From Myxococcaceae bacterium (GTDB lineage Bacteria > Myxococcota > Myxococcia > Myxococcales > Myxococcaceae): DNA of 46,733 nt. The stretch lies in NCBI GenBank assembly GCA_019694595.1, contig JAIBBQ010000027.1:1-46733 (forward strand), written 5' to 3'. Shown piece after piece: positions 14,881 through 29,632 of the stretch. A program made the translations under genes and the position numbers. The notes under the pieces were generated by a model that was given only the letters and a program-made list of their open reading frames with translations, did no database searches and was not told where the DNA came from. Positions within the stretch are counted from its first letter, which is position 1. The number at the start of each line of letters is the position of its first letter.

Positions 14881-15810
14881 TCAGCGGTGCTTGGCCGCCC
14901 AGCGCGGGTACGGCCGCCCCACCGCGCGGTCCGGGTCCACCAGGTTGCTCGCGAGCCCGTTGCGGCCGGCGAAGTAGTCGTGCACCTGCTGCCGCGCGAG
15001 CGGCGCGAGGTCCCGATCGCCGATGGCGATGGCGTGAATGTGCGGCGAGAAGCCGTCGGCCGGTCCGCGGGTCCATGCCGCGAAGCCCGCCAGCCGCAGC
15101 GCCTTCACCATCTTGAGCTGGGTCGCGTGCGAGCGGCCGGCGACGCTCACGTCCATCGCGCCGCCGCCGTCGTGGGTCCCCGCGCTGGCGGCGACCCCCG
15201 GGTGGTAGCTGCCCTGCACCAGCCCGAAGTCGCCGTGCACGCCGAGCTTGTGGGCGTACAGCTCCGCGCGCTGCAGCATCACCTTGGTGCGCTCGTTCAA
15301 CGTCACGCCGCGAAAGTGCACGTGGTGGTAGTCCGCCGGCGGCCGCGCGACGTGCGGGTGGCGCTCGCGCGGCACCCGGTTCGCCGCCCGGTGCAGCAGG
15401 CGCTCGGTCTTCAGGTCAGCCACGCCGTCGGCGCGCAGGTGGTGCTGCCGCTCGAACCGCTTCACCGCCTCGGCCACCGAGCGCTGGAAGCGATCGCCCG
15501 CAGGCGTCTTCACCAGCCCCAGCCCGAAGAGGTCGCGCTTCAAGTTCGCGACCCGCTTCCCGCTGTCTCCCCGGTGGAGCCCGCGGTGGGTCGGCGTCTC
15601 CAGCGAGTCCTGCTTGAGCGCGCGCTGCTCCTTCACCCCTGCCGTGCCGTCGGCTGGAATCCCGCGCTGCCTCTCGTACGCCTTCAGCGCACGCTCCGCC
15701 CGCTGGTCGAGCCGGCCGTCGACCGCGCCGTCGAAGAGCCCGAGCCGCCGCAGCTGCAGCTCCATCCGCTCGACGTCGAGACCGCGACTTCCGAGGTGCA
15801 GCCGGGCCAT
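14881..15810 (-). CDS. Peptidoglycan-binding protein with M15-like metallopeptidase domain
   Basis: This is a 309-residue protein starting at ATG 15810, with GGAGG 6 nt upstream. Two peptidoglycan-binding-1 repeats come first (about residues 3-65 and 78-140; LQLRRLGLFDGAVDG and DRFQRSVAEAVKRFERQH). The C-terminal domain (about 165-300) has SAGTHDGGGAMDVSV followed by FSPHIHAIAIGD and VHDYFAGRNGL, the pattern of an M15-like zinc D-Ala peptidase in which the His and Asp of GTHDGGGAMD and a His of PHIH would bind zinc. No ordinary signal peptide is visible, which is odd for a cell-wall enzyme: it may leave by another route or act after lysis. It is convergent with the gene ending at 14867, 13 nt away. 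Confidence 0.7.
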   Translation of the reverse strand: MARLHLGSRGLDVERMELQLRRLGLFDGAVDGRLDQRAERALKAYERQRGIPADGTAGVKEQRALKQDSLETPTHRGLHRGDSGKRVANLKRDLFGLGLVKTPAGDRFQRSVAEAVKRFERQHHLRADGVADLKTERLLHRAANRVPRERHPHVARPPADYHHVHFRGVTLNERTKVMLQRAELYAHKLGVHGDFGLVQGSYHPGVAASAGTHDGGGAMDVSVAGRSHATQLKMVKALRLAGFAAWTRGPADGFSPHIHAIAIGDRDLAPLARQQVHDYFAGRNGLASNLVDPDRAVGRPYPRWAAKHR

Positions 15811-16118
15811 GGGAGCCTCCGAGGCGAAGGGGTCCCAGGGTTGTCTGCGGTCGCGTGCCAGAGCTGCGCGCTGTCCCTGGCGCATCGGCTGACACTGACC
15901 TCCTCGGGAGGACAGACCTGGGCACGGCGTTCAATGCCGCCGCTGGAAGTAGCTGAAACGATGGGACCCAGCGCGGTGCCCCTTCGGTGATGGCCGCGAC
16001 GAGGTTGCGTCCGATTCTTGCGAACCTCTCTCTCATTCCTCGTGCAGTGAGCCGATCCGCCGCCACCGCGCGACCCGGGGGCATCGGTCAATCTCGACCG
16101 CCTCGAAGGAGAAGGTCC
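15811..16118. other. 308-bp divergent intergenic region
   Basis: This lies between the M15-like peptidase (minus) and a lipoprotein gene (plus). The edges carry the ribosome sites of both genes. Inside I see only a small inverted repeat, TCCTC/GAGGA at 15901-15912, and no convincing ORF, RNA gene or consensus promoter. It presumably holds both promoters. Confidence 0.4.
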
Positions 16119-17153: not shown

Positions 17154-17810
17154 ATGGCGGACACCGCTCCCAGCCCGGTCAGGGTCGCGCTCGTCGAGGA
17201 TCACCCCGCGACGCGCGAGGCCCTGGTGCGCCTGCTGGAAGCATTCCCCCAGCGCGCCCGGCTGGTCTGCGCGGTCCCCGATGCCGAGAGCTTCCTGCGC
17301 AGCGGCAAGCTGAAGGACGTGCAGGTCGTCCTCGCGGACCTGATGCTGCCCGGCAAGAGCGGCAGCGAGCTCATCGCCGAGCTGTCCACCAGCGCGCCCG
17401 AGCTGCGCTGCCTGGCGCTGACCGCCTTCGACTCCGAGCAGCAGGTGCTCGAAGCCATCCGCGCCGGCGCGTACGGCTACCTGCTCAAGGACGAGCCCCC
17501 GGAGCGCCTGGTGAGCGCGGTCGAGGAAGCGGCCGCGGGCGCACACCCCGTGTCCAGCCGGGTGGCCGGCTTCCTCTTCACCCACACCCGCCGCGCTCCT
17601 GCTCCGGTCACCTTGAGCGACCGCGAGGAGGAGCTCGCCCGTGCGCTGGCCGACGGCCTCAGCTACCAGGAATGCGCCGCCCGCATGGGCATCGCGATCG
17701 GCACCGTGCAGGACTACGTGAAGCGCCTGTACCGGAAGCTCGACGTCAGCTCGAAGAAGGAAGTCCGGGCCTGGGTGTCGATCTACGGGCTGCGCCCGGG
17801 GTCCACCTAG
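17154..17810 (+). CDS. NarL/LuxR-family response regulator
   Basis: This 218-residue DNA-binding regulator has an N-terminal receiver with the acid pair in LVEDH, phospho-acceptor Asp62 in VLADLMLPG, and Lys in GYLLKDE. A C-terminal LuxR-type helix-turn-helix (about residues 148-210) carries LSDREEELARALADGLSYQE and TVQDYVKRLYRKLDVSSKKE. This class is normally phosphorylated by HisKA_3-type kinases, which is the type of both neighbouring genes, so it is the natural output of the kinase pair at 17807-20394. Its last four bases overlap the end of the convergent kinase gene. Confidence 0.93.
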   Translation: MADTAPSPVRVALVEDHPATREALVRLLEAFPQRARLVCAVPDAESFLRSGKLKDVQVVLADLMLPGKSGSELIAELSTSAPELRCLALTAFDSEQQVLEAIRAGAYGYLLKDEPPERLVSAVEEAAAGAHPVSSRVAGFLFTHTRRAPAPVTLSDREEELARALADGLSYQECAARMGIAIGTVQDYVKRLYRKLDVSSKKEVRAWVSIYGLRPGST

Positions 17811-19081
17811 GCCGACGGAGCGCCAGCGCCCTGCGCCTCGCTCGGGACCTGCGACCGGGGCAGCGTCAACACCAGCCGCACCGCCTCGCCCGACGCCTGA
17901 GCCTCGACCGAACCAAAGCTCGCGGCCGCGCGCGCCCGGGCTTCCGCGGCACCACCCGTCCCTTCCACCGCGACGACCTGCGCCGGCGACGCCTCCACGG
18001 TGACCGACAGCGCCTCGCCGAGCGAGACCCGCAGCCGCAGCCGCCGCACGCCCGGAAGTCCCGCCAGCGACTGCACCAGCGGCTGCAGCGCACGCACCGC
18101 GGCGAAGGCGACCGGCGCCGCCAGCGTCTCGCCCGGCCCTTGCTCCAGCTGCACGCGCTCGCAGTCCACCGTCGCGCCGCAGAGCCGGCGGCAGGTGGCG
18201 TCGAGCAGCTTGGCGAGCTCGCCGAGCGTGCCCCGCTCGCCCGACAGCATCAGCACCACGGTGCGCAGCTCCTCGAGTGCCAGCTGGGCGCTGGCCGCGA
18301 GCGTCGCCGCCTGGGGCACGCGCTCGGCGTGACCGCGCAGCTGCAGGAACAGCGCGGTGATCTCCGCCCCCACGCCGTCATGGAGCTCACGGGCCATGCG
18401 CTCGCGCACCTGGGCCACCTCGCTCGCGAGCAGCGTCTGCTCGAGCAGGTCGCGCTCCACGCGGCTCCGGGTGGCGCTCCAGGTCGGCCCTGCGGTCATC
18501 GTCTGCGCGACGAAGTTCCCCACGAGCGCGAGCACCACCACGATGGCGTCACCGGTGCGGCCGGTGGCCAGACAGCCCGCGAGCGCGAGGCCATGGGCCA
18601 CCAGGTTCAGGACGAGGGTGCGGTACCACCAGCGGCGCGAGCGCGGCCGCCACATGAAGCCGAGCCCGATGTCGATGAAGAGGAAGGGGAGCGCCGCGGC
18701 CCCCGACAACACCATGCAGCCGAGGAGCGCCAGCACCCGGAGCAGCCGGTCGAGCTCGGCGGTGAGCGAGGTGACGGCGTGGCGGGGCCCGAGCCACGCG
18801 TGCGCCCCCGCGGCCAGGAGGAAGCCGCAGCTCGCCGAGAGCACCAGCACCGCGAACGCCCCCGGAGACAGGTCGCCGAAGACCGGATCCGGAGCGCGCC
18901 AGGCGGCGAGTGCCAGACCACACGCCGCGATCCCGACCACGCCCAGGGCGACCGGCCACGAGCGGAGCCTGGCCTCGCTGCGATCCGCGTCGAGCTCGAG
19001 CGCCTGGATCGTCGCCACCTCCAGGGTCGCTGCGTCGACGAAGTCGGTCGTCGCCTGGGCGGTGCGAACGCTGGCGCTCAT
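17807..19081 (-). CDS. Membrane HisKA_3 histidine kinase with intact His box but degenerate ATP-binding domain
   Basis: This 424-residue protein starts at ATG 19081, with no clear ribosome site. Five or six membrane segments occupy about residues 42-198 with no large periplasmic domain. The HisKA_3 dimerisation domain is canonical, with His234 in RMARELHDGVGAEITAL. The region where HATPase should be (about 310-415) keeps the strand pattern (RRLRLRVSLGEALSVTVE, VRLVLTLP), but the N box reads FAAVRALQPLVQSLA with no Asn, and the DxGxG loop is replaced by VEASPAQ. No Gly-rich ATP lid is present. It should therefore be unable to bind ATP and transfer phosphate by itself, yet could receive phosphate. 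It is divergent from a kinase with the opposite defect (19150) and convergent with the response regulator (17154). Confidence 0.85.
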   Translation of the reverse strand: MSASVRTAQATTDFVDAATLEVATIQALELDADRSEARLRSWPVALGVVGIAACGLALAAWRAPDPVFGDLSPGAFAVLVLSASCGFLLAAGAHAWLGPRHAVTSLTAELDRLLRVLALLGCMVLSGAAALPFLFIDIGLGFMWRPRSRRWWYRTLVLNLVAHGLALAGCLATGRTGDAIVVVLALVGNFVAQTMTAGPTWSATRSRVERDLLEQTLLASEVAQVRERMARELHDGVGAEITALFLQLRGHAERVPQAATLAASAQLALEELRTVVLMLSGERGTLGELAKLLDATCRRLCGATVDCERVQLEQGPGETLAAPVAFAAVRALQPLVQSLAGLPGVRRLRLRVSLGEALSVTVEASPAQVVAVEGTGGAAEARARAAASFGSVEAQASGEAVRLVLTLPRSQVPSEAQGAGAPSA

Positions 19082-19149
19082 GGCGCGCTCATTGCCACGG
19101 GAGGCCCTTTCGCGGAAGGGTCGCGCGCGGTAGCACTCGCCCCCCCACC
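19082..19149. promoter_or_regulatory. 68-bp divergent promoter region of the kinase pair
   Basis: This is the only space between the two divergent kinase genes, so both promoters must lie here or inside the opposing gene. TAGCAC at 19131-19136 is a possible -10 for the rightward gene, 13 nt before its ATG. No operator is recognised. The shared region makes co-regulation likely. Confidence 0.35.
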
Positions 19150-20394
19150 ATGGATGACCTGGCCGCCGAGCAAGCACAGCTCATCACCGAGGTCACCGCG
19201 CGGGCCGACGCGCAGCGGCGCTCGTGGGCCTTCTCGCTGCAGATGATCGCCTCGAACGTGCTCTTCGCGCTCACCACCCTGGCGCCGAAGGCAGAGCGGG
19301 TCTTCGGGACGCTCGAGCCCTGGCTCGCGCTGGTCATCATCACGCCGGCCATGGTCATGGTCGTGGCCAACCTCTGGCTCTACCGCCGGCTCGGCTCGGG
19401 CTCGCGCCTGTTCCGCGCGAGCGACACGCTCGAGTCCACCTTCATGTACTGCATCGCGCTCAGCTTCATCGAGCTGTCGGGGCTGCGGTGGTCGCTGCTG
19501 TGGTCGCTGTGTGTCTACACCGCCATCTTCTGGGCGCTCACCAACCCCTTCAGCACCCCGCGCTTCGTGGGGCTCATCCTGGGGACGCACGCGGTGCACG
19601 TGGTGGTGATGATCGTGCGCGGCCACGGCGCCGACATCGGCGCGCCGATCTCCACCGGCCTCGCAGCGCTGCTCACGTTCGTCATGGTCGCGCGCAGCCG
19701 GAGGGCCTCGATCCTCGCGGAAGCGGAAGGCAACCTCCTGCGGCGCTCGCTCACGGCCCGCGCCGTGGAGACCGAGCGCGCGCGCCTGGGCACCACCATC
19801 CTCGCGGGCGTCGGTCAACGACTGGAGGCACTCGCCGGCCAGGCCAGGGCGCTCGAAGCCACGCAGGCCACCAGCGGTCTCGCCGTTCAGGCCCAGGCGG
19901 CACTGCGCGAGCTCGCGGCCATCGTGAGCGCAGCGCGCCCCGACGCCCTGCCGCGGTCGGTCGACGGCCTGGTCGCGCTGCTGCAGCGCAAGCTCACGCC
20001 GCTGTGCGTCGGGCGCGCGCTGACGGTGGGTGCGGCTGCGGGACCCGCGCACGACGTTCCGCCCGGGGCCGCGCTCGCGGTGCTGCGCATCGGCCAGGAG
20101 CTGGTGCGGAACGCGGTGGTCCACGGGGGCGCCGGGCGCATCGACGTCGAGCTGCGCCGCGACGCGGCCGGCCTCGCGCTCGCGGTGCGCGACGACGGCA
20201 AGGGGCTCCACGACCAGGCGCTCGCGGCGGCCACCGGCGGGCTGCGCAACGCCCGCCGCTGGGCCGAGGAGCACGGGGGCACGCTCACCCGCGAGGCGGG
20301 AGACACCACGGCCCTGGTCGTTCACCTGCCGCTCGACGAACCGATGCCCGCGGTAGCGGGAGAGAAGGTCGCCACCGCGGCCAGCGCCAGCTGA
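19150..20394 (+). CDS. Membrane HisKA_3-type kinase with intact ATP-binding domain but no phospho-acceptor His
   Basis: This is a 414-residue protein. Five or six membrane segments lie at about residues 22-185 (LALVIITPAMVMVVANLWLY, FVGLILGTHAVHVVVMIV). The dimerisation motif is ERARLGTTILAGVGQRLEAL: aligned with ERxRIARELHDGVGQ, Leu218 sits at the phospho-His position and Ala219 at the following Asp. The HATPase domain looks complete, with N box GQELVRNAVVHGGAG, D box VRDDGKGLHD and GGLRNARRWAEEHGGTL. It can plausibly bind ATP but has no His to phosphorylate in itself. A His-box partner lies divergently 68 bp away. Alternatively it could be a pure regulator of that partner. Confidence 0.88.
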   Translation: MDDLAAEQAQLITEVTARADAQRRSWAFSLQMIASNVLFALTTLAPKAERVFGTLEPWLALVIITPAMVMVVANLWLYRRLGSGSRLFRASDTLESTFMYCIALSFIELSGLRWSLLWSLCVYTAIFWALTNPFSTPRFVGLILGTHAVHVVVMIVRGHGADIGAPISTGLAALLTFVMVARSRRASILAEAEGNLLRRSLTARAVETERARLGTTILAGVGQRLEALAGQARALEATQATSGLAVQAQAALRELAAIVSAARPDALPRSVDGLVALLQRKLTPLCVGRALTVGAAAGPAHDVPPGAALAVLRIGQELVRNAVVHGGAGRIDVELRRDAAGLALAVRDDGKGLHDQALAAATGGLRNARRWAEEHGGTLTREAGDTTALVVHLPLDEPMPAVAGEKVATAASAS

Positions 20395-20407: not shown

Positions 20408-20920
20408 CCCCGCGTCCGGAAGCTGCGCGTACGGGGCGGCGTCGAGGGCGCTGCAGGTCCCGCCGTCGTCCGGGAAGGTGAAGCGGTTGAACTCGAGCGC
20501 TTGCGGGCTGCCGGTGTCGATGGGCGCCGCCTCGTTGATGCGCCGCTCCACCAGCACCCCGGCATCGTCCGCAGCGAGGTAGCCGACCTCGTACCAGTAG
20601 AGCGCCGACTGCATCGGCATGCAGGCGGTCACCTGCCAGGGGCCGCCGTCGGCCCGGGCCATCTCGAACCGCCTGGTGGTGGCGACCAGCGCCGCCGAGT
20701 CCTCGAAGGGCGAACGCGCCGCGAGCGCGAACACCACCGGGCAGCAGCCCGCGTCGGCGATGGTGCCCGACGGGACCTGGGGGGCGCTCGGGTAGCGCTC
20801 GCCCGCCTTCACCGGGTCGGGGGCGGTGGGCGCGGGCAGGTCGCGCGTCAAGAGCTCCGGCGCGACGGGCTTTCCGCCGCAGGCCGCGGCGAGCACCGCG
20901 AAGAGGACGATGCGCTTCAT
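20402..20920 (-). CDS. Small lipoprotein, last gene of the envelope operon
   Basis: This is a 172-residue protein with signal peptide MKRIVLFAVLAAACGG and lipobox AAAC (Cys14). The mature region has Cys residues in ADAGCCPVVF, QVTACMPMQSALYWYEVGY and GGTCSALD, and acidic Asp-Ala-Gly stretches. No family is recognised. Its start overlaps the stop of the preceding gene by four bases (ATGA), so it is translationally coupled to the vitellogenin-N-like protein and probably acts with it at the envelope. Confidence 0.6.
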   Translation of the reverse strand: MKRIVLFAVLAAACGGKPVAPELLTRDLPAPTAPDPVKAGERYPSAPQVPSGTIADAGCCPVVFALAARSPFEDSAALVATTRRFEMARADGGPWQVTACMPMQSALYWYEVGYLAADDAGVLVERRINEAAPIDTGSPQALEFNRFTFPDDGGTCSALDAAPYAQLPDAGS

Positions 20921-22812
20921 CGGAGCACCTCCGCGACCTCGTCCTCGGTGAGATGCGCCGAGAACTCGTTGATGAGCGAGGTGTCGTGAGCCCGCTCGAA
21001 CTTCGCCTGGGCGACGAGCGCGGCCCGCACGTCAGGCGCCTGCGCCACCGTGCTCTTCGACACCAGGCGGATGATGTTGCGCCGCGCGAGGCCGGACTGA
21101 AGCAGCGGCAGATCGCGCAGCGCCTGGTCCACCAGCGCCCGGCTCGCGCCCTGGCGCAGCGCCGCGTGCTGCTCCCAGATGACCTTGTAGAGCTTGTTCT
21201 TCACGAAGGGGTTCTGCTCGCGCCGCAGCCACGCCAGCTCGGCCGCCTCGGACGCCTCCACCGGCATGCGTCCGAAGGCATTCGCCGCGTCCTTGCGGGT
21301 CTGCACGTCGGGCGCCTGGGAGAAGACGAGCGCCTGATCGAGCAGCGCGGGGTCGCCGGCGTTCCCCACCCCGGCCAGCGCGGCCCGCTGCACGGCCGTG
21401 GTCTCGCTGCCCTGGTGCAACAGCCGTCGCAGCGCCTCGGTGGCGACCTCCGAGACGGCGGGGTCGTCTTGCAGCCCGGCCATGGTGGAGAAGGCGAGCA
21501 CCGATTCCCGCGCCAGGAAGTCGCCCGCCTGGGTGCGCCGGGCGAGGTGGTGGTCGACGTCGGCGACGAATTCCTGCGCCAGGCCACGCCCCACGTCTTG
21601 CCGGGTCACCAGCGCGAACATCGCCCGCACCTGGTTCATCGCTTCACCGGCGTCGTCCCGCTTGAGGTCGAGCAGCTGCTGCAGTGCCTCCGGGGTGCGC
21701 GCCTTGCTCAGCGCCAGGAAGAAGGGCCCGGTGGCGTCGTCCGGCAGCTCGCCGTCGAGGTACGCACGCACCGCCGGGCGAATCGACTCGGGGTGCACCT
21801 CGAAGTATGCCGACAGCTCCGGCCACGTCGACTGGATGCCGACCTTCCGGTTCACCCGGTCGACGAAGGAATCCAGCGCCTCCTTCGGCGTCTGGTTCGC
21901 CACCTTCTGCTGTCGCTCGGCGTCGAAGCGCGTGAAGGGGCGCTGGACCAGGCTGTCCTGGTGCAGCGGCAGCAGGTCTTCCCACCGGTACGCCGAGAGG
22001 TCGCGGTCCGCCGTGGTGAACGGCCGCCCCAGGCTCGGCAGCTTCTCGAGGTCCAGGGTTCCCACCACCGAGCCGCCTTCCAGCGCCTGCGTCTCGCGCG
22101 ACGAGAGGAGGTCGAACCACGGGCCGCGGCCGACCCGCACCACCAGGGCGCCCTCGGTCCGGCCCGCGGCCGTCTGCCCCCAGCGAGAGACGTAGCGCTC
22201 GAGCGTCCGCCGCAGCTCGGCCGGACCTGCGAAGGCCAGGCGACCTTCGGCCACGCCGGTGCCGTTGCTCATGCGAAAGGCGTCCGACGACTCGAGGCGG
22301 AACTGCGCTTCCCACAGGAGCGCCTGCTGGCTGCGGCCCGCCGCGCGGCCCTGCGACTGGTGGCGGGCGAAGCGCGTCAACTGGCACCCGGAGTCGACGG
22401 CCACCAGGAAGGGCGCCTTCAGCCCCTCGGGGTCGAACGCCGAGCCGCCCTTCGCCTTGAGCTGGGTGAGCCGGCCCACCAGCACCGCGTCGGCGCTGCT
22501 CGCCTGCAGCACCTCGAGTTCCAGCGCGCCGACCAGCGCGAGGTCGAGCGGCAGCTCGCCGGCACCGGGCACCGACTGGGTCCCGTGAGAGGTCACCGTG
22601 AGCCCGTAGGTGAGCCGGTCACCCCGGCCGAACCGGCAGGTGGTCCGCTCCGGCACCACCGCCGGCGTCACCTGGCCCGACGCGCCGGGCGACGAGGCCC
22701 CGGCGGCGGGAGACACGGGAACCGCGCCCTGCGGCCACCACACCCAGGCGGCCGCCGCCACCGCGGTGACGGCCCCCAGGCTCAGCGTCGCGAATCGAAC
22801 GGTGGGCTTCAT
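20917..22812 (-). CDS. Exported beta-barrel plus alpha-solenoid protein resembling vitellogenin N-terminal (lipid-transfer) modules
   Basis: This is a 631-residue protein; the ATG at 22812 shares its A with the upstream TGA (TGATG). A hydrophobic segment at the N-terminus (ATLSLGAVTAVAAAAWVWWP) is a signal anchor or signal peptide. Residues about 55-260 are beta-rich (CRFGRGDRLTYGLTV, LALVGALELEVLQASSADAV). From about 300 onward the protein is a helical repeat solenoid with HEAT-like turns, such as RAALAGVGNAGDPALLDQAL and VQTRKDAANAFGRMPVEA. This order, a beta-barrel followed by HEAT-like helices with a GNAG turn, is the plan of the vitellogenin/large-lipid-transfer N-terminal region, which animals use to load lipid. 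The solenoid is clear; the lipid-transfer link is inference. It is third in a four-gene operon. Confidence 0.6.
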   Translation of the reverse strand: MKPTVRFATLSLGAVTAVAAAAWVWWPQGAVPVSPAAGASSPGASGQVTPAVVPERTTCRFGRGDRLTYGLTVTSHGTQSVPGAGELPLDLALVGALELEVLQASSADAVLVGRLTQLKAKGGSAFDPEGLKAPFLVAVDSGCQLTRFARHQSQGRAAGRSQQALLWEAQFRLESSDAFRMSNGTGVAEGRLAFAGPAELRRTLERYVSRWGQTAAGRTEGALVVRVGRGPWFDLLSSRETQALEGGSVVGTLDLEKLPSLGRPFTTADRDLSAYRWEDLLPLHQDSLVQRPFTRFDAERQQKVANQTPKEALDSFVDRVNRKVGIQSTWPELSAYFEVHPESIRPAVRAYLDGELPDDATGPFFLALSKARTPEALQQLLDLKRDDAGEAMNQVRAMFALVTRQDVGRGLAQEFVADVDHHLARRTQAGDFLARESVLAFSTMAGLQDDPAVSEVATEALRRLLHQGSETTAVQRAALAGVGNAGDPALLDQALVFSQAPDVQTRKDAANAFGRMPVEASEAAELAWLRREQNPFVKNKLYKVIWEQHAALRQGASRALVDQALRDLPLLQSGLARRNIIRLVSKSTVAQAPDVRAALVAQAKFERAHDTSLINEFSAHLTEDEVAEVLR

Positions 22813-25800
22813 CACTGGAGCTCCTTCCGGAAGTAGCGCTCCCAGCTCTTGAGCGACCCTTCACCGACCTTGAAGCCCTCGTACTCGAGCAGCGTGTAGC
22901 TGAAGGTGAAGAACGGGGTGACGATCTTGGCTTCGATGGAGCCGGTCATCATCGAGATGCTCCAGCCCACGTCGAGCTTCATCAGCGCGTTGCTCGCGCT
23001 GTGGCCGAGGCCGTCGCTCACCGTCGTGTGGCTGAAGCTGATGCCGGGCTTGAGCTTGGCCTCGATGACGTTGATGGCGCCTTCCAGACAGACGCCTTCG
23101 TCGTCGTCGGGCGTGCAGTAGGCGATGGTGAAGCCGCCCGAGAAGCCCGCCTCGAGGGTGATGGACGCCTTGTGCGACTGCCCCTTGGCCACCGCTTCCC
23201 GCGTGCACACCGACGGGTAGGAATCGGTCAGCTTCCGGGTCGCGAAGAACGAGTCCTTCAGGGTGACGGCGCGGGCATCCACCGGCGCATTGGAATCCGG
23301 CGTCTCGCCAGTGAAGCTCCCATCGGCGAGTTCGCGCGGCGTCGCCACCGCGAAGGGCGAGAACGAGTTCGAGCTCATCAGGTTCTCGGCGTCGGACAGC
23401 CAGCGCATCAGCATGGTGTGCCCGGTCTTGCAGACCGACGCGTTCCAGACCTGGGCGCAGTCCTGGTCGGAGCGGTACTCGTTGCCGACCTGCGCGCCCA
23501 CCCACTGCTCGGTGCCGGCAGCCAGCGCTGCGCGCATCTTGCCCACCATCGCGGTGCTGCGCGGCTCGGCCAGCTCGCCGCCCAGGAAGTTGCAGCGGTC
23601 GCGCGCGTCCTTGAACGGCATCGCCGGGAGCGCGATCTCCTTGGTGGGGCAGTTGGTCTGCGGCGAGCCGTCGGCGTTGCTGGCCGCGCACGACGCCTCG
23701 ACGCTCAGGTTCGCCTCGTGCTCCAGCACCAGCCCGATGCCCACGCCGGTGCCGACGCCGAAGATGAGGAAGCCCTGCGCGGGGCCGTAGCGAACCGGCA
23801 CTTTGTACTCGACGCCCATGGAGATGCCGTTGATGCCGGCGGCGATGCGCTTGCCCTTCACCCGGAAGCCCGGCGTCTTCTTCCCCAGCTTCTCGAGGAT
23901 CGGCTCCCAGTTGGGGCTGATGGTGATGGTGGTCTTCGCCGACTTCGGAGGCGAGTCGAACGACTCGTTGAGCACGTCGAAGCCGAAGAGCTTGAACTCG
24001 GTGGCGAACTTGCCGGTCATGTCGTCTTCGTCGTCCTCGCTGTCGGTGGTGAAGATGGGCGCGGCGATCGGCTCCGCGCTGCCGCCCATCGCCTGGCTGG
24101 AGTGGGTCTCGCAGGTGGACCCGGTGCACGTGCGTTCCTCGTCGCCGTCGAAGGTGCCCGACAGGCGGGACTCGCCGCTGGTGGTGGGCGCGGCGTCGGT
24201 GACGTCACCGTCGCTCACCTCCGGCTCCTCGAGCGGGGTGACCACGTTCTCGCCGCGGATCGAGAACAGGTTGGAGTCGACGCAGTTGTTCCACGCGGTG
24301 TCGGTGACCGACCACTTGTACCAACCGCCAGGGACCTTCTGCCAATCGAGCAGGTCCTTGGGTCCGGTGGTCCACTTGGTGGAGATCCCCGAAGGGCAGA
24401 CGCGCAGGTAGAAGGTCTTCGCCACGCCGGGAGCGACGCCGGCCTGGGCCAGCATCGCGCGCACCGTGCGGTCGATGCCGATGAAGAGGGGAATCGAGGT
24501 GCCGGACTCACCCACCGGCGCCTTGGTGAAGAGCCGCGCGTTGAGGAAGGGAACGCCGATCTCCATGCCGGTCACGTAGCGCCCGAACTGGTTCTTGACC
24601 GTCGGATCGGGCACCAGGACCAGCGCGGTGTCGCTCCCGGCGGCATAGCGGTTGAGGTCGACGAAGAACTCGCCCTTGAGCGCCTGCGGGGCTTCTCCTT
24701 CGAACTTCATCACCGCTTCATCCATGCCGAGGAGGTTCGAGGCCTTCTGCGCCTCGATCCCCTGGATGACGATGCTCACGTCGGCGGCGATCTGCCCGCG
24801 CGCACGGCCGGCCATGTTCACCTTGTATTCCAGGCGACGAACGTGAGCCTCGGTGGCGGCGATCAGCGTCTGGCCGTCGCGGAAGCTCATGGTGAACGGG
24901 CGGCCCTTGGCGGGCTCGGCGCTCAGCTGCATCGCGTTCTGCGAGTAGTACGAGCGCGAATCGAAGGCGCGGGCGCGGTAGTTGTAGAAGAAGTCGAGCG
25001 GCTTCACGCTGCAGGAGACCGCCTCGGTGCTCTTGGGCGCCACCACCAGCGCGCGATCGTCGAGGTCGTAGGAAGCCTTGAGCTCGGTCGTGAGCGCGGT
25101 GGTGGGCAGGTCGGCGTCCTTCACCGTGGTGAGGTCGACCCCGTCGCCCAGCAGCGAGGCCTTGACCGCCGCCTTGAACGGCTCGCCGTCGCTGCAGTGG
25201 GTGGGGAGCCGGAAGCGCTCCTTGAACGCCACCTCGGTGCCGCCGTCGGCCGGCTGGTACTTGGCGAGGTCGAACTTACCGACCACGCAGCGCAGCACGT
25301 CAGTGGTGGCGATGAGCGAGCCCGGCGTGGTGATGGTGCTCTGCATCCACAGCGTCACCGTCTGCCGGGGCGCCGAGGTGCCGCTCGAGCGGACGGTGCC
25401 TTCGAACTCGTACACCTGCTCGTGGGCCAGATTGAGCCGGGGCTGCCCGGCGTCGGTGGCGTCCCACATCGGCTTCCACCTCGCGATGTCCGCGAAGGCC
25501 TGGGTGAGCTTCGGGTTGTCCGGGTACTCCCGGGGGTGGACCTGGATCAGCTGCGGCTGCACGCTGGTGAGGCTGAGCACCGGGAGCGCTTCCACCGGCT
25601 TGAGCAGATCGGGAGCACACTGCAGCAGCGTGTCGCGGCGCGTGTGCCCGTAGCAGTTCTCCGGCACGCACGCGAAGCGGGGCGAAGGCTTCGGCAGCGG
25701 GCAGCTCACGTGGAGCGCGTCCGTCGTGCGGATGCCCACCACCGAGTCATCGTCGGAGCAGGTGTACTTCACCGACATCCCTTCGAGCCCGCAGCCGGTC

Positions 25801-26177
25801 TGACTGATGAGCTCGCGCTTCTGCTTGAAATCGTCGGCGCCCACCGCGCAGTCGGTCAGCAGGTCGCAGCGCTTCGAGAAGTAATTGACCGCCTGCACCG
25901 CCGACCCGCCATCAGGGTGAAACTCGTCGCGACAGGTCACGTCGACGATGGCGATCTGGTTGACCCGGCGCCCCGCGTCGAAGCTGGCGCCTGCCTGGGC
26001 CAGCGCCTCGCTGGTGAGCTCGGAGTGAAACCGGCCGAAATCGTACGGAACCTGCCCCGCCGGGCACTTGAGGGTGTCGAGGGTCTGGTGACTCGAGCTC
26101 GCGCCCGAGCCGCCGCCGCTGCACGCCGCCAGCAGCCCCACCGTCACCGCCGACGTCAGACGCTTCATGTTCGTCAT
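22812..26177 (-). CDS. Large surface lipoprotein with C-type-lectin-like segment
   Basis: This is a 1121-residue protein; ATG 26177 overlaps the upstream stop by four bases (ATGA), and an internal ATG at 26168 would give the signal peptide MKRLTSAVTVGLLAAC directly. The lipid Cys is followed by Gly/Ser. Numerous Cys occur in the first 200 residues (VDVTCRDEF, RCDLLTDCAVGADD, CVPENCYGHT), which suggests disulfides. Long beta-rich stretches follow. An acidic linker near DSEDDEDDMTG leads to a region at about 850-930 like a C-type lectin fold (ARDRCNFLGGELAEP, EQWVGAQVGN). The end (SFSHTTVSDGLGHSAS, WERYFRKELQ) is beta-rich. The role is probably surface binding in a complex with its operon neighbours. 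Ligand unknown. Confidence 0.6.
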   Translation of the reverse strand: MTNMKRLTSAVTVGLLAACSGGGSGASSSHQTLDTLKCPAGQVPYDFGRFHSELTSEALAQAGASFDAGRRVNQIAIVDVTCRDEFHPDGGSAVQAVNYFSKRCDLLTDCAVGADDFKQKRELISQTGCGLEGMSVKYTCSDDDSVVGIRTTDALHVSCPLPKPSPRFACVPENCYGHTRRDTLLQCAPDLLKPVEALPVLSLTSVQPQLIQVHPREYPDNPKLTQAFADIARWKPMWDATDAGQPRLNLAHEQVYEFEGTVRSSGTSAPRQTVTLWMQSTITTPGSLIATTDVLRCVVGKFDLAKYQPADGGTEVAFKERFRLPTHCSDGEPFKAAVKASLLGDGVDLTTVKDADLPTTALTTELKASYDLDDRALVVAPKSTEAVSCSVKPLDFFYNYRARAFDSRSYYSQNAMQLSAEPAKGRPFTMSFRDGQTLIAATEAHVRRLEYKVNMAGRARGQIAADVSIVIQGIEAQKASNLLGMDEAVMKFEGEAPQALKGEFFVDLNRYAAGSDTALVLVPDPTVKNQFGRYVTGMEIGVPFLNARLFTKAPVGESGTSIPLFIGIDRTVRAMLAQAGVAPGVAKTFYLRVCPSGISTKWTTGPKDLLDWQKVPGGWYKWSVTDTAWNNCVDSNLFSIRGENVVTPLEEPEVSDGDVTDAAPTTSGESRLSGTFDGDEERTCTGSTCETHSSQAMGGSAEPIAAPIFTTDSEDDEDDMTGKFATEFKLFGFDVLNESFDSPPKSAKTTITISPNWEPILEKLGKKTPGFRVKGKRIAAGINGISMGVEYKVPVRYGPAQGFLIFGVGTGVGIGLVLEHEANLSVEASCAASNADGSPQTNCPTKEIALPAMPFKDARDRCNFLGGELAEPRSTAMVGKMRAALAAGTEQWVGAQVGNEYRSDQDCAQVWNASVCKTGHTMLMRWLSDAENLMSSNSFSPFAVATPRELADGSFTGETPDSNAPVDARAVTLKDSFFATRKLTDSYPSVCTREAVAKGQSHKASITLEAGFSGGFTIAYCTPDDDEGVCLEGAINVIEAKLKPGISFSHTTVSDGLGHSASNALMKLDVGWSISMMTGSIEAKIVTPFFTFSYTLLEYEGFKVGEGSLKSWERYFRKELQ

Positions 26178-29100
26178 GGCACGCACCGGAGGACCACGCA
26201 GCCGTTCTGGGAAGTTCCTGCACTGCTGCTGCCCGCGCCGCCGCAGCTCTGGCTGTTGTCCCAGGCACCGCTGCCGGGAGCGCTGGTGTTGGTGGCGACG
26301 TCGTGGACGAAGCCGCTCGGCAGCGGGCCGACGCTGCCCCCTTCCCCGCCGAGCCCGTTGGTCCCTGCCACGCCGCCGTCGAAGCCGGCGCCGCCGCCGC
26401 CCGCCGTCGACGACGCGCCCGCGCTCTGCCCTCCGGCGCTGGTCCACCCACCCGAGCTGCTGCTCCCCGCCGCGCTCCCCAGGCCCATCGCCCCGCCGCC
26501 ACCGCCGCCCGGAATCGTCAGGCTGGTGATGAGCGTGCCGTTGCCCTGGGCGTGCTTGATGCTGGTGAGCCCACCGCCCACGCCACCGCTGTTCTGGTTG
26601 AAGAGGCCGTCGCCCTGGCCGCCCTTCGCGATGACGCCGAGGAGCGAGCCGATGCCGGTGGTGTTCGTCGACTGGTACTGCACCGCGCCCGCGGCGCCGA
26701 CCCACACGGTGAAGACCTCGGTGGGCGTGGTGGTGAGCGTGCCGTGCAGGAAGCCGCCGGTGCCCCCTTCCATCGTCAGCGGAGGTCCGCCGCCCCCGGG
26801 CACCACGCCCGGGCCGCCCGCCGCGCCCCACGCCTGCACGAAGACCTGGTTGCAGCCCGTGGGCACCGTGAAGGCCCCGCTGGGCGCCACGCCGTCGGTG
26901 GTGGGGACCTTGAACACGGCCTTGCCTGCGCCGCAGGTCCCGGTGCCGCCCGTGCAGTTGCCCGAGCTGGCTCCGCAGTAGCAGTCGGCCGCCGCGACGC
27001 AGTCGGTGTCGCGCGTGCAGCCGGTCGGCCCCGCGTCGGACACGCCCGAGTCGGCCACGCCCGAATCCAGCTGGCCGCCGTCGACCATCGTCGAGCCGCC
27101 GTCGGTGACGTCGAGGCAGGTGCAGGCGAGCTGGGCGGTGACGTCGGCCGCGGTCAACGGCCCGGTGGCGGGGCTCGCGAGCGTGCACGAGAAGCGGTAC
27201 CGGTGCGGCTTGAGCCCGAGCTGGGCGCCCACCGCCGGGTTGACGTTGTACTGGTAGGTGGAGTCGCCCTCGACCGACGCGCCCAGGGACAGCGCCCAGG
27301 CCGCGCCGCCGTCGTAGAAGCCGCCGTCGCTCGCGCGGGACACCGTCTGCCAGAGCGCGGGCAGCGTGGAGCGACGGACGTCGGTCGACGGGCTCCCCGA
27401 AGAAAGCTCGATGCCCGCGCTGGTGGCGAACACCGACAGCGTGGGGCCTTGCGGGAAGCGCTCCCAGGCGCGAATGGAGTCGGTGGGCTTGGTCACCTCG
27501 AGTTCCACCGGACAGCCAGTGCCGTTGGTGGTGTAGCCGATGTTCGACTTCACCCGCGTGCAGCGCAGGGTGTTGCCGCCGGGGGTACCGGCGTCGCCCA
27601 GCGACCAGTTCCACCGGCCCTGGCCATCGGCGGTGTCGAAGGTGCAGATGGCGTGGCTGTCGGAGATGACGCGGGCCGAGAAGGACTCCACCGCCTGGAA
27701 GCTGCGCGTGAAGGCGGCGCCTCCCGAGACGCCGTAGAGGTCGACGAAGGTCTCCGGCTTCCCGTCGCGCGCGGAATAGATGCGCAGGAACGAGTCCGCC
27801 CCCAGGCCGACGATGGTCAGCGGCAGGCTCTGGAGCGTGCGGCAGGTCTGCGCCAGGCAGTCGTTCCCCGGGCGGCAGCCGGAGACGTCGGCGCACGAGA
27901 AGCCCGCCGCGCAAGGGCACCCGCCGCCGCAGTCGACGCTGGTCTCCGTGCGGTTGAGCCGGCCGTCGCTGCAGGTCTGCTCGACGCACTTCGTCTGGAA
28001 ACACTCGCCGGCGGCGGAGCCCATCGGCGGGGTGCAGTCGGCGTTCTTGGCGCACACCTTGGCGACGTCGCAGCGGCCGTCTCCCGAGCGATCGCCCGCG
28101 GGCTGCATGGCGCAGAAGTCGCCGCAGTCCACGTCGGCCTCGAGCGGGTCCTTCTTGCCGTTGAGGCAGGTGGAGACCTTGGTCTGGGTGTCGACGGTCG
28201 AGGTGCCGGTGGTGGTGTCCACGGTGATGGTGGCGTCGCTGGTGCCGGTGGTGGTGCCCTTGGTGGTGGTGCTCGACTGGGTGCCGTCCGCCTGGGTGGT
28301 GGTGGTGGTCACGGTGACGCCGGTGCCGCTCGAGGTGGTGTCCGCGGTCACCTTGACGTTCTTGGGGTCGCTGGCGTCGACGGTGACGCCCGCGGCGGGC
28401 TTGTCCACGGTGACGGTGACCGTGGTCTCGCTCCCGTCGGCGTTCTTGGTGGTGGTGGTGATGGTGGTGCCCGCGTCGCCGGTGGCGCTGTAGGTGACCG
28501 TCTTCTTGTCCGGGTCCACGGTGACGCCGCCGCTGCCGCCGGAGCCTTCGACCTTGGCCACCACGGTGGGGCTGGTGGCGAAGATGGTGCCCGCGTCGGC
28601 GCCCACGGTGACGGTCTTGGCGCCCGAGCCGGAGCTGAGCATCACGTTGGTGATGCCGTTGGGCGGCTTGCAGAAGCAGTCGGCGGCGCCGGGCATCACC
28701 AGGCCGCCGTTCTCGACCAGCTGACCGTCCTTCACGCCCACCGAGGTGCCGTCGCCTTCCACCAGCACCACGCCCTGGGTGGTGGAGGCGGTGAAGCCGT
28801 CGGAGAACGGCGGCACCAGCACGCCCAGGCGGGCGGTGACCGGAGAGAACTGGAGCGGGTTGTCCGCGTTGCCCACGTAGGTGCGGGGCGCGTCGGGGTT
28901 GGGCGAGCCTTCGTACGACCAGGTGTTGGCCTTGAGGTCGAGCTCGAGGCGGCGCTCCTCGCCGGGGAAGTTGGGGTCGTAGAGGCGCAGGAAGTACTGG
29001 TTGGCGCCGTCGCCCTTGAAGTACCCGAAGGGCACCACGGCGTGCCCGGCGTGGAAGCCGCTCTCGTCGCGCATCGACAGGAGCAATCGCCAGCCTTCGT

Positions 29101-29632
29101 CCTTCTTCTTGAAGGCGTCGGCGAGGAAGGCGATGGCGTCCTTGGGCGCGAGCCGCTTGTCGCTGGCGTGCGTGGACAGGATCTTCTGGGTGATGGCCCA
29201 GTAGGCGAGCTCGGCGCGCAGGCGGCGGTCGTCGAAGCTGAGCGCCGCCGCGTTGGAGCCGCCGAAGGTCGCGGGGTCCACCTTGCCCAGCGACATCAGG
29301 AGCGCCAGCACCGCCATGCCTTCGCTGTGCCCGTGGTGCAGCGTGGCGTTGGCCTCGGCGATCCACGCCTTGGCGGCGTCGTTGGGGACACAGTCCGCTC
29401 CGGCGCCCTTCGCGCAGACCTTGGCGTCGCCGAACATGCGCGCGGCGAGCGCGGGCGTGAAGTCCCCGCCGCCCTGCGCGTCGTCGAAGTTGGTGAAGGT
29501 GAAGGCCTGGGTGGTGAAGTCGAAGCCGCCGTTCATCGCGTCCGGAGGACCGGAGGCGCAGCCAGCGCAGAGCAACGAGGCGAGCAGACCGACGCCCGCA
29601 CCGCGGACCCAGCGCGAAGACGTCTGAACCAT
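26174..29632 (-). CDS. Large modular surface lipoprotein: papain-like (inactive?) domain, Thr-rich linker, Cys-rich repeats, Gly-rich tail
   Basis: This is a 1152-residue protein and the first gene of the four-gene operon. Signal peptide with lipobox CAGC (Cys25). Residues about 40-260 resemble bacterial papain-like domains: GHSEGMAVLALL corresponds to the usual GxCxGM segment but has Ser103 where Cys is expected, followed by GHAVVPFGY (His197) and RLYDPNFPGEE. A Thr/Val linker comes next (about 370-490; TTITTTTKNADGSE). The Cys-rich region at about 490-610 is Myxococcus-type (SVDCGGGCPCAAGFSC). The last 220 residues are Gly-rich (IPGGGGGGAMGLGSA). It is probably displayed on the outer surface. 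I judge the papain-like domain non-catalytic because of the Ser. Confidence 0.6.
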   Translation of the reverse strand: MVQTSSRWVRGAGVGLLASLLCAGCASGPPDAMNGGFDFTTQAFTFTNFDDAQGGGDFTPALAARMFGDAKVCAKGAGADCVPNDAAKAWIAEANATLHHGHSEGMAVLALLMSLGKVDPATFGGSNAAALSFDDRRLRAELAYWAITQKILSTHASDKRLAPKDAIAFLADAFKKKDEGWRLLLSMRDESGFHAGHAVVPFGYFKGDGANQYFLRLYDPNFPGEERRLELDLKANTWSYEGSPNPDAPRTYVGNADNPLQFSPVTARLGVLVPPFSDGFTASTTQGVVLVEGDGTSVGVKDGQLVENGGLVMPGAADCFCKPPNGITNVMLSSGSGAKTVTVGADAGTIFATSPTVVAKVEGSGGSGGVTVDPDKKTVTYSATGDAGTTITTTTKNADGSETTVTVTVDKPAAGVTVDASDPKNVKVTADTTSSGTGVTVTTTTTQADGTQSSTTTKGTTTGTSDATITVDTTTGTSTVDTQTKVSTCLNGKKDPLEADVDCGDFCAMQPAGDRSGDGRCDVAKVCAKNADCTPPMGSAAGECFQTKCVEQTCSDGRLNRTETSVDCGGGCPCAAGFSCADVSGCRPGNDCLAQTCRTLQSLPLTIVGLGADSFLRIYSARDGKPETFVDLYGVSGGAAFTRSFQAVESFSARVISDSHAICTFDTADGQGRWNWSLGDAGTPGGNTLRCTRVKSNIGYTTNGTGCPVELEVTKPTDSIRAWERFPQGPTLSVFATSAGIELSSGSPSTDVRRSTLPALWQTVSRASDGGFYDGGAAWALSLGASVEGDSTYQYNVNPAVGAQLGLKPHRYRFSCTLASPATGPLTAADVTAQLACTCLDVTDGGSTMVDGGQLDSGVADSGVSDAGPTGCTRDTDCVAAADCYCGASSGNCTGGTGTCGAGKAVFKVPTTDGVAPSGAFTVPTGCNQVFVQAWGAAGGPGVVPGGGGPPLTMEGGTGGFLHGTLTTTPTEVFTVWVGAAGAVQYQSTNTTGIGSLLGVIAKGGQGDGLFNQNSGGVGGGLTSIKHAQGNGTLITSLTIPGGGGGGAMGLGSAAGSSSSGGWTSAGGQSAGASSTAGGGGAGFDGGVAGTNGLGGEGGSVGPLPSGFVHDVATNTSAPGSGAWDNSQSCGGAGSSSAGTSQNGCVVLRCVP

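Follow-up and report, generated by a model that had tools for sequence, protein, structure and literature searches.

DesK-DesR and other HisKA_3 membrane kinase systems combine a HisKA_3 helix and an HATPase_c domain in one protein, with a NarL-type regulator encoded next to it, and DesK itself has membrane helices but no separate sensor domain. Here we describe a locus of a Myxococcaceae bacterium that has these same parts, and in which the phospho-acceptor His and the ATP site lie on two proteins, subunits A and B, neither of which is complete. The locus lies on contig JAIBBQ010000027.1, all 46,733 bases of which were analysed (the window; entire contig G000:C47 of a 7.28-Mb draft genome). 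The reading that the sequences support best, with a probability of about 0.72, is that A and B form a heterodimer which operates as one DesK-like membrane kinase, and the two probably function as a single sensor and not separately.

Split kinases are already known. In Mycobacterium tuberculosis the His and ATP functions of Rv0600c/Rv0601c lie on separate proteins, which correspond to the N and C parts of one divided ordinary kinase and not to two full-length paralogues. A passage of PMC9274095 describes the two kinase genes as cooperating with one regulator, TcrA, in which the system resembles the A/B locus. In CheA3/CheA4 of Rhodobacter sphaeroides, to which the preliminary description likened the pair, one protein has the His and the other the ATP site; passages of PMC3591291 state that neither protein labels itself alone, that CheA4 lacks P1 and that CheA3 lacks P3 and P4. 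The analogy holds for the division of His and ATP site but is otherwise loose: there, whole domains are missing from soluble members of the CheA family, whereas here full-length membrane HisKA_3 paralogues have eroded motifs, and the phosphatase activity, which the passages on CheA3/CheA4 place on the His protein CheA3, contrasts with a phosphatase-type Gln on the ATP protein B. Hik36-Hik43/Rre6 of Synechocystis resembles the pair in being termed a split histidine kinase, with pairwise two-hybrid interactions, but in the passages concerned (PMC7656254) it is a CheA homologue divided by domains and encoded by genes that lie far apart. Passages of PMC3591291 also count 11 split versus 470 complete CheAs, and 1,556 HisKA proteins without a HATPase domain among 42,417 in SMART. 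'Incomplete HKs' (histidine kinases) are a recognised class, those of P2CS being treated together with other kinases in the relevant part of PMC3018481. A survey of myxobacterial two-component genes mentions no pair of this kind in its passages on this subject (PMC4603909), and none of the top-ranked open-licence literature matches listed describes a comparable HisKA_3 pair in the membrane. The present locus differs from these systems in that full-length HisKA_3 paralogues of the membrane have lost catalytic motifs in complementary fashion and persist as a pair in two genera.

Catalytic motifs and layout of the locus

Subunit A (P0001, 424 amino acids) is encoded on the minus strand at window positions 17807-19081, with its ATG at 19081, and contains membrane helices, a HisKA_3 helix and a degenerate HATPase-fold domain. 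Its phospho-acceptor is His234-Asp235 in RELHDGVG, while Ser replaces the N-box Asn and Ala the first Asp of DxGxG. At E<=1, Pfam detected HisKA_3 (31.2 bits, cut-off 24), an additional and insignificant TctB match, and no HATPase family. Subunit B (P0002, 414 amino acids) is encoded divergently on the plus strand at 19150-20394, with its ATG at 19150, and contains membrane helices, a DHp-like helix and an intact HATPase_c domain. Leu218-Ala219 occupy the place of His-Asp, and the ATP-site motifs QELVRNAVVHG, DDGKG and TGGLRN are intact, with Asn321, Asp348-Asp349-Gly350 and Gly363-Gly364. The Pfam matches of B at E<=1 were to HATPase-type families alone, among them HATPase_c (41.2 bits, cut-off 26.4), and HisKA_3 was not detected. 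The preliminary description had assigned a canonical His box without N box and DxGxG to A, and Leu-Ala with intact ATP-site boxes to B; both assignments are exact to the residue, the coordinates and strands it gave also hold, and each protein matches Pfam for its own half only. Thus, A carries the phospho-acceptor His with a HisKA_3 match and B does not, and neither protein carries the N box and DxGxG alongside the His. At E<=1, neither A nor B matched a CheA-family domain (Hpt/P1 or the CheW-like P5). The HDxxxQ motif of bifunctional phosphatases is absent from any single helix: A has HDxxxA, with Ala239 at position His+5, and B has LAxxxQ, with Gln223 at that position.

The 68-bp region between the divergent start codons (19082-19149) presumably holds the promoters of both genes. 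The adjoining regulator (P0003, 218 amino acids, plus strand, 17154-17810) has the receiver and GerE helix-turn-helix families of the NarL type in Pfam, as the preliminary description had it, so that the locus contains what is expected of a two-component system with such a regulator. Its gene converges on that of A, and the two stop codons overlap by 4 bases at 17807-17810. Asp16, Asp62, Thr90 and Lys112, which we take to be the functional residues of the receiver, are invariant across the three regulators compared, namely those of the window and of the two genomes introduced below.

Distribution and origin of the pair

Two other contigs bear this regulator, one of Archangium sp. C5_metabat.bin.21 (JAUYRZ010000008.1, taken as G066:C49) and one of Myxococcaceae bacterium bin.172 (JALHOS010000340.1, taken as G001:C340), and their regulators are 66-67% and 59-60% identical to that of the window. 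In G066, an Archangium-type metagenome-assembled genome of a second genus, regulator, A and B form a tightly packed trio in the order and orientation seen in the window (identities of 41% for A, 44% for B and 66% for the regulator). Here too regulator and A are convergent, with stop codons overlapping by 8 bases (L079 5583-5590). Because the trio was found in G066 among the six genomes with genus code g17, its occurrence is patchy even within g17. The A protein of G066 keeps RELHDGVG, has Leu for the N-box Asn and lacks DxGxG; its B protein reads SSLTSGVAQ at the His box, with Thr for His (TSxxxQ), and has intact QELVRNAITHG, DDGSG and GG loop. Pfam gave HisKA_3 without HATPase for this A (24.9 bits, just above the cut-off of 24) and HATPase_c without HisKA_3 for this B. 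The defects are therefore conserved, neither orthologue keeps both motifs, and His and ATP site are on separate proteins of one locus in two genera. The replacement of the His by differing residues, Leu and Thr, suggests that what the two B proteins have in common is loss of the His and no particular substitute. A sequencing error in one assembly is an unlikely source of the pattern, as a genome of a different genus repeats it with Thr, not Leu.

The contig of G001 starts inside B, at about residue 249, so that the ATPase half of B, with an HATPase_c match, and the regulator are present and the place of the His lies outside the contig. A stretch matching the last ~33 positions of the B profile recurs at 493-591, after the truncated B gene (L080 3-591), and is either a local duplication or an assembly artefact.

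A and B were searched for in 60 relatives and in 96 family genomes (the window's included), and A also as a profile in 145 genomes of the order and 195 of the phylum. The regulator was searched for in 147 class and 195 phylum genomes and, by pattern, in genome_contigs, with the best 80 of 248 relatives kept. In each genome these searches score a part (9 to 30) of the first-look candidates, so that weak orthologues may be missed. In the family genomes the sole long match above the common background was in G066, both for A (41%, E 8e-56) and for B (44%, E 1e-87), the next match to B being the G001 fragment (52%). The regulator was found at E<=1e-45 in 3 of the 147 class genomes, the window's included. 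Across the phylum genomes, a three-row regulator profile scored the same three above 390 bits and the next best at 158, and a two-row A profile scored the two A proteins above 700 bits and the next best at 85, the profiles being built from these same proteins, whose own scores are high by construction. No further orthologues than those of G066 and the G001 fragment turned up, with B searched for in the family only. Apart from the window, a single genome has the locus unbroken, and there the three genes occur together; neither kinase gene was found by itself at an intact locus (A searched to the phylum, 195 genomes; B in the family, 96 genomes); the sole case of B without A is G001, whose contig begins inside B.

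Complete kinases from genus codes g5 and g8 (G004, G025, G035, G117, G118, G119, G061 and G062) come next, at ~30% identity to each of the two proteins. These are the nearest to A and B after the orthologues, resemble them in size and membrane layout and have a NarL-type regulator directly upstream; they differ from the pair in carrying His, N and G boxes in a single gene, and all seven of the eight that were scanned with Pfam match both domains. A contig end in G067 was rejected as an A orthologue: it has a one-strand response regulator-kinase arrangement with the His present, is cut before the N box and was taken as the single-kinase type. The second kinase of G035 (C68) and the matches in G159 and G170 were rejected likewise, each having both His and Asn.

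How unusual the defects are was judged from 121 aligned kinase cores. Their loci had been collected because they resembled A, B or the regulator, so that the set is non-random, and some genes are repeated in it. After omission of 6 partial rows, 115 cores cover both boxes. The His is present in 113 of these, the exceptions being B of the window and B of G066, and the N-box Asn is also present in 113, the exceptions being the A proteins from these two genomes. In three Bacteroidota rows Asn or Ser stands in place of the first DxGxG Asp, while the His and the N-box Asn are kept. Together with the recurrence in a second genus, this survey rules out chance or misalignment as the source of the motif pattern.

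Compared by BLAST, A and B align along almost the whole of their length (24% identity, E 7.5e-5 and 2.9e-4), and because they are homologous, an origin as paralogues by duplication with complementary loss is likely. In a tree of 69 cores, which excluded cores shorter than 150 amino acids, repeats, and loci L090-L169 with a number not divisible by three, the two A proteins (100/96) and the two B proteins (100/100) each form a clade, and an open node (89/73) unites both clades with 11 complete kinases of g5/g8. On the simplest account, a complete kinase would have been duplicated first and the copies would have undergone reciprocal loss second, before the two genera parted. The distribution of constraint was compared between the window and G066. 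In A, linker and His helix are identical at 29/48 positions (60%) and the catalytic domain at 37/118 (31%); in B the corresponding values are 18/48 (38%) and 63/128 (49%), and the membrane parts are similar (40% in A, 41% in B). Because of these opposite values, each subunit seems relaxed where its partner is strict. The interaction of protein and domain gave z = 3.39 and p = 0.0007, with sites treated as independent. For complete kinases five pairs, with some rows in common, were tabulated, and in each of them the His helix is the better conserved part.

Predicted structures and a candidate mechanism

AlphaFold2 models (pLDDT 87.4 for A, 88.0 for B) were obtained from 52-row alignments, the fold alignments using 47/63 distant cores. 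Both models, that of A included, contain an HATPase-like domain besides the membrane helices, the long signalling/DHp helix and a second helix, so that the eroded catalytic domain of A probably still folds. Before the long signalling helix the models place five helices in A, one of them of 42 residues, and six in B; simple hydropathy gave five separate peaks in A versus three in B. Of the five to six membrane helices proposed earlier for each protein, the number for A stands and that for B is less sure. No separate sensor domain was found in A or B, which bears out the earlier remark that they have almost none, and one may guess, by analogy with DesK, that sensing takes place via the membrane helices. 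With the model of A, Foldseek ranked DesK-DesR complexes first and second in the PDB; with that of B, its PDB matches include a bacteriophytochrome, ZraS, CpxA and DesK. For both, a probability of 1.00 goes with low whole-protein TM-scores and high root-mean-square deviations. In phmmer searches of the PDB, A matched no chain at E<=0.01 and B matched three at E<=0.001 (VraS, a GAF-domain protein and DevS).

We infer that a single kinase function is divided between A and B, the presumed paralogues of a DesK-like HisKA_3 membrane kinase. B would bind ATP and phosphorylate His234 of A across the dimer, the phosphoryl group would pass from A to Asp62 of the NarL-type regulator encoded alongside, and this would then control transcription. 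In both A proteins the His and the Asp after it are retained, and a mere scaffold would need neither. According to the passages of PMC5231405 on the DesK phosphotransferase crystal, the complex lacks symmetry: a catalytic domain contacts helix alpha1 in the opposite protomer, and each dimer binds one regulator. As that crystal engages one catalytic domain and one regulator, an A:B dimer has what one working half needs, and by this analogy one His, on A, and one ATPase domain, on B, could suffice.

As to possible target genes, large proteins with lipoprotein-like N termini are encoded near kinase/regulator genes in the window (20917-29632, minus strand) and in G001 (L080 1438-8276, plus strand). 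Between these two genomes, one comparison gave 41% identity over 946 aligned columns and another 30% over 506, and no match was found within 14 kb around the G066 trio. A further protein of the window (14884-15885, minus strand) has two PG_binding_1 stretches and no clear Pfam match elsewhere.

Alternative explanations and significance

Several observations weigh against the heterodimer. Co-inheritance rests on little, namely two complete loci and one fragment; in G001 the order differs, with B followed by the regulator on the same strand, and A was not found in that assembly, whose contig begins inside B. The shift in constraint of A is not significant against one complete-kinase control (p = 0.11) and that of B is significant against one of three (p = 0.06, 0.10 and 0.010), with domain borders set by the authors. 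The homology of A and B, although clear, is weak by BLAST (24%), and the long branches of the tree leave their mutual order unfixed (node 89/73). The predicted fold of A partly mirrors the complete kinases in its alignment. Finally, passages of PMC8199190 indicate that the rule predicting cis or trans phosphorylation may fail for the HisKA_3 kinases NarX/NarQ, so that the mode cannot be read by rule in this family.

Regulation of a complete kinase by a pseudokinase is modelled by DivL with CckA, and A and B might be independent pseudokinases tied to other complete kinases, A as a phosphate acceptor or sink and B as a negative regulator. We consider this unlikely. Pseudo-histidine kinases that act on other kinases are on record in literature listings (PMC4211667 and PMC9430884), and besides A the genome has two HisKA_3 matches (E<=0.001; G000:C325 and G000:C4) that could supply partners; with only these two, few other such kinases could act on A, and a partnership fits better with complementary losses in adjacent genes of common descent that occur jointly with the regulator in two genera. 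It is more improbable still that B is mainly a phosphatase, or off-switch, in which ATP only sets the conformation, and that A is a phospho-donor which receives its phosphoryl group from acetyl phosphate or from another kinase. This idea draws on the Gln at His+5 of both B proteins, equivalent to DesK Gln193, where both A proteins have Ala; in the relevant passages of PMC5231405 and PMC6798134 this Gln positions the catalytic water for dephosphorylation, and the first of these also describes DesK His188Val as trapped in the phosphatase state. However, B has Ala or Ser in place of the His+1 Asp, the residue that salt-bridges the regulator in the DesK phosphatase complex. Moreover, Gln at His+5 is common: the wider set has it in 30 of 117 rows, counting both B proteins, so that two of two means little; it occurs in none of the eight complete g5/g8 kinases of the alignment, and we treat it as a lead only. 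Least probable of all is that A and B are decaying remnants of two kinases without a joint function. Although the catalytic domain of A is strongly diverged (31% between orthologues), open frames of ~400 codons persist in two genera at 41-44% identity beside an intact regulator, and the ATP motifs of B and the His box of A are intact.

Within the heterodimer reading, a more specific form is conceivable, if doubtful: A:B might be a hard-wired asymmetric kinase, with the phospho-acceptor (His and Asp) on A and the ATPase plus phosphatase Gln on B, free B being the off-switch and A:B the on-switch. If so, evolution would have made the DesK-type asymmetry permanent and sorted two opposite activities onto two proteins, and a switch-like response could arise from the A:B ratio, which a single divergent promoter region would set.

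The need for two active sites per histidine kinase dimer is usually probed with engineered mutant pairs, and a natural pair that is complementary in two genera could directly answer whether a dimer needs both. The pair is also a candidate case in which duplicated genes have lost complementary functions through changes in catalytic residues, and it may provide a membrane-bound, transcriptional test case, outside chemotaxis, for the theory of switch-like split kinases set out in passages of PMC3591291.

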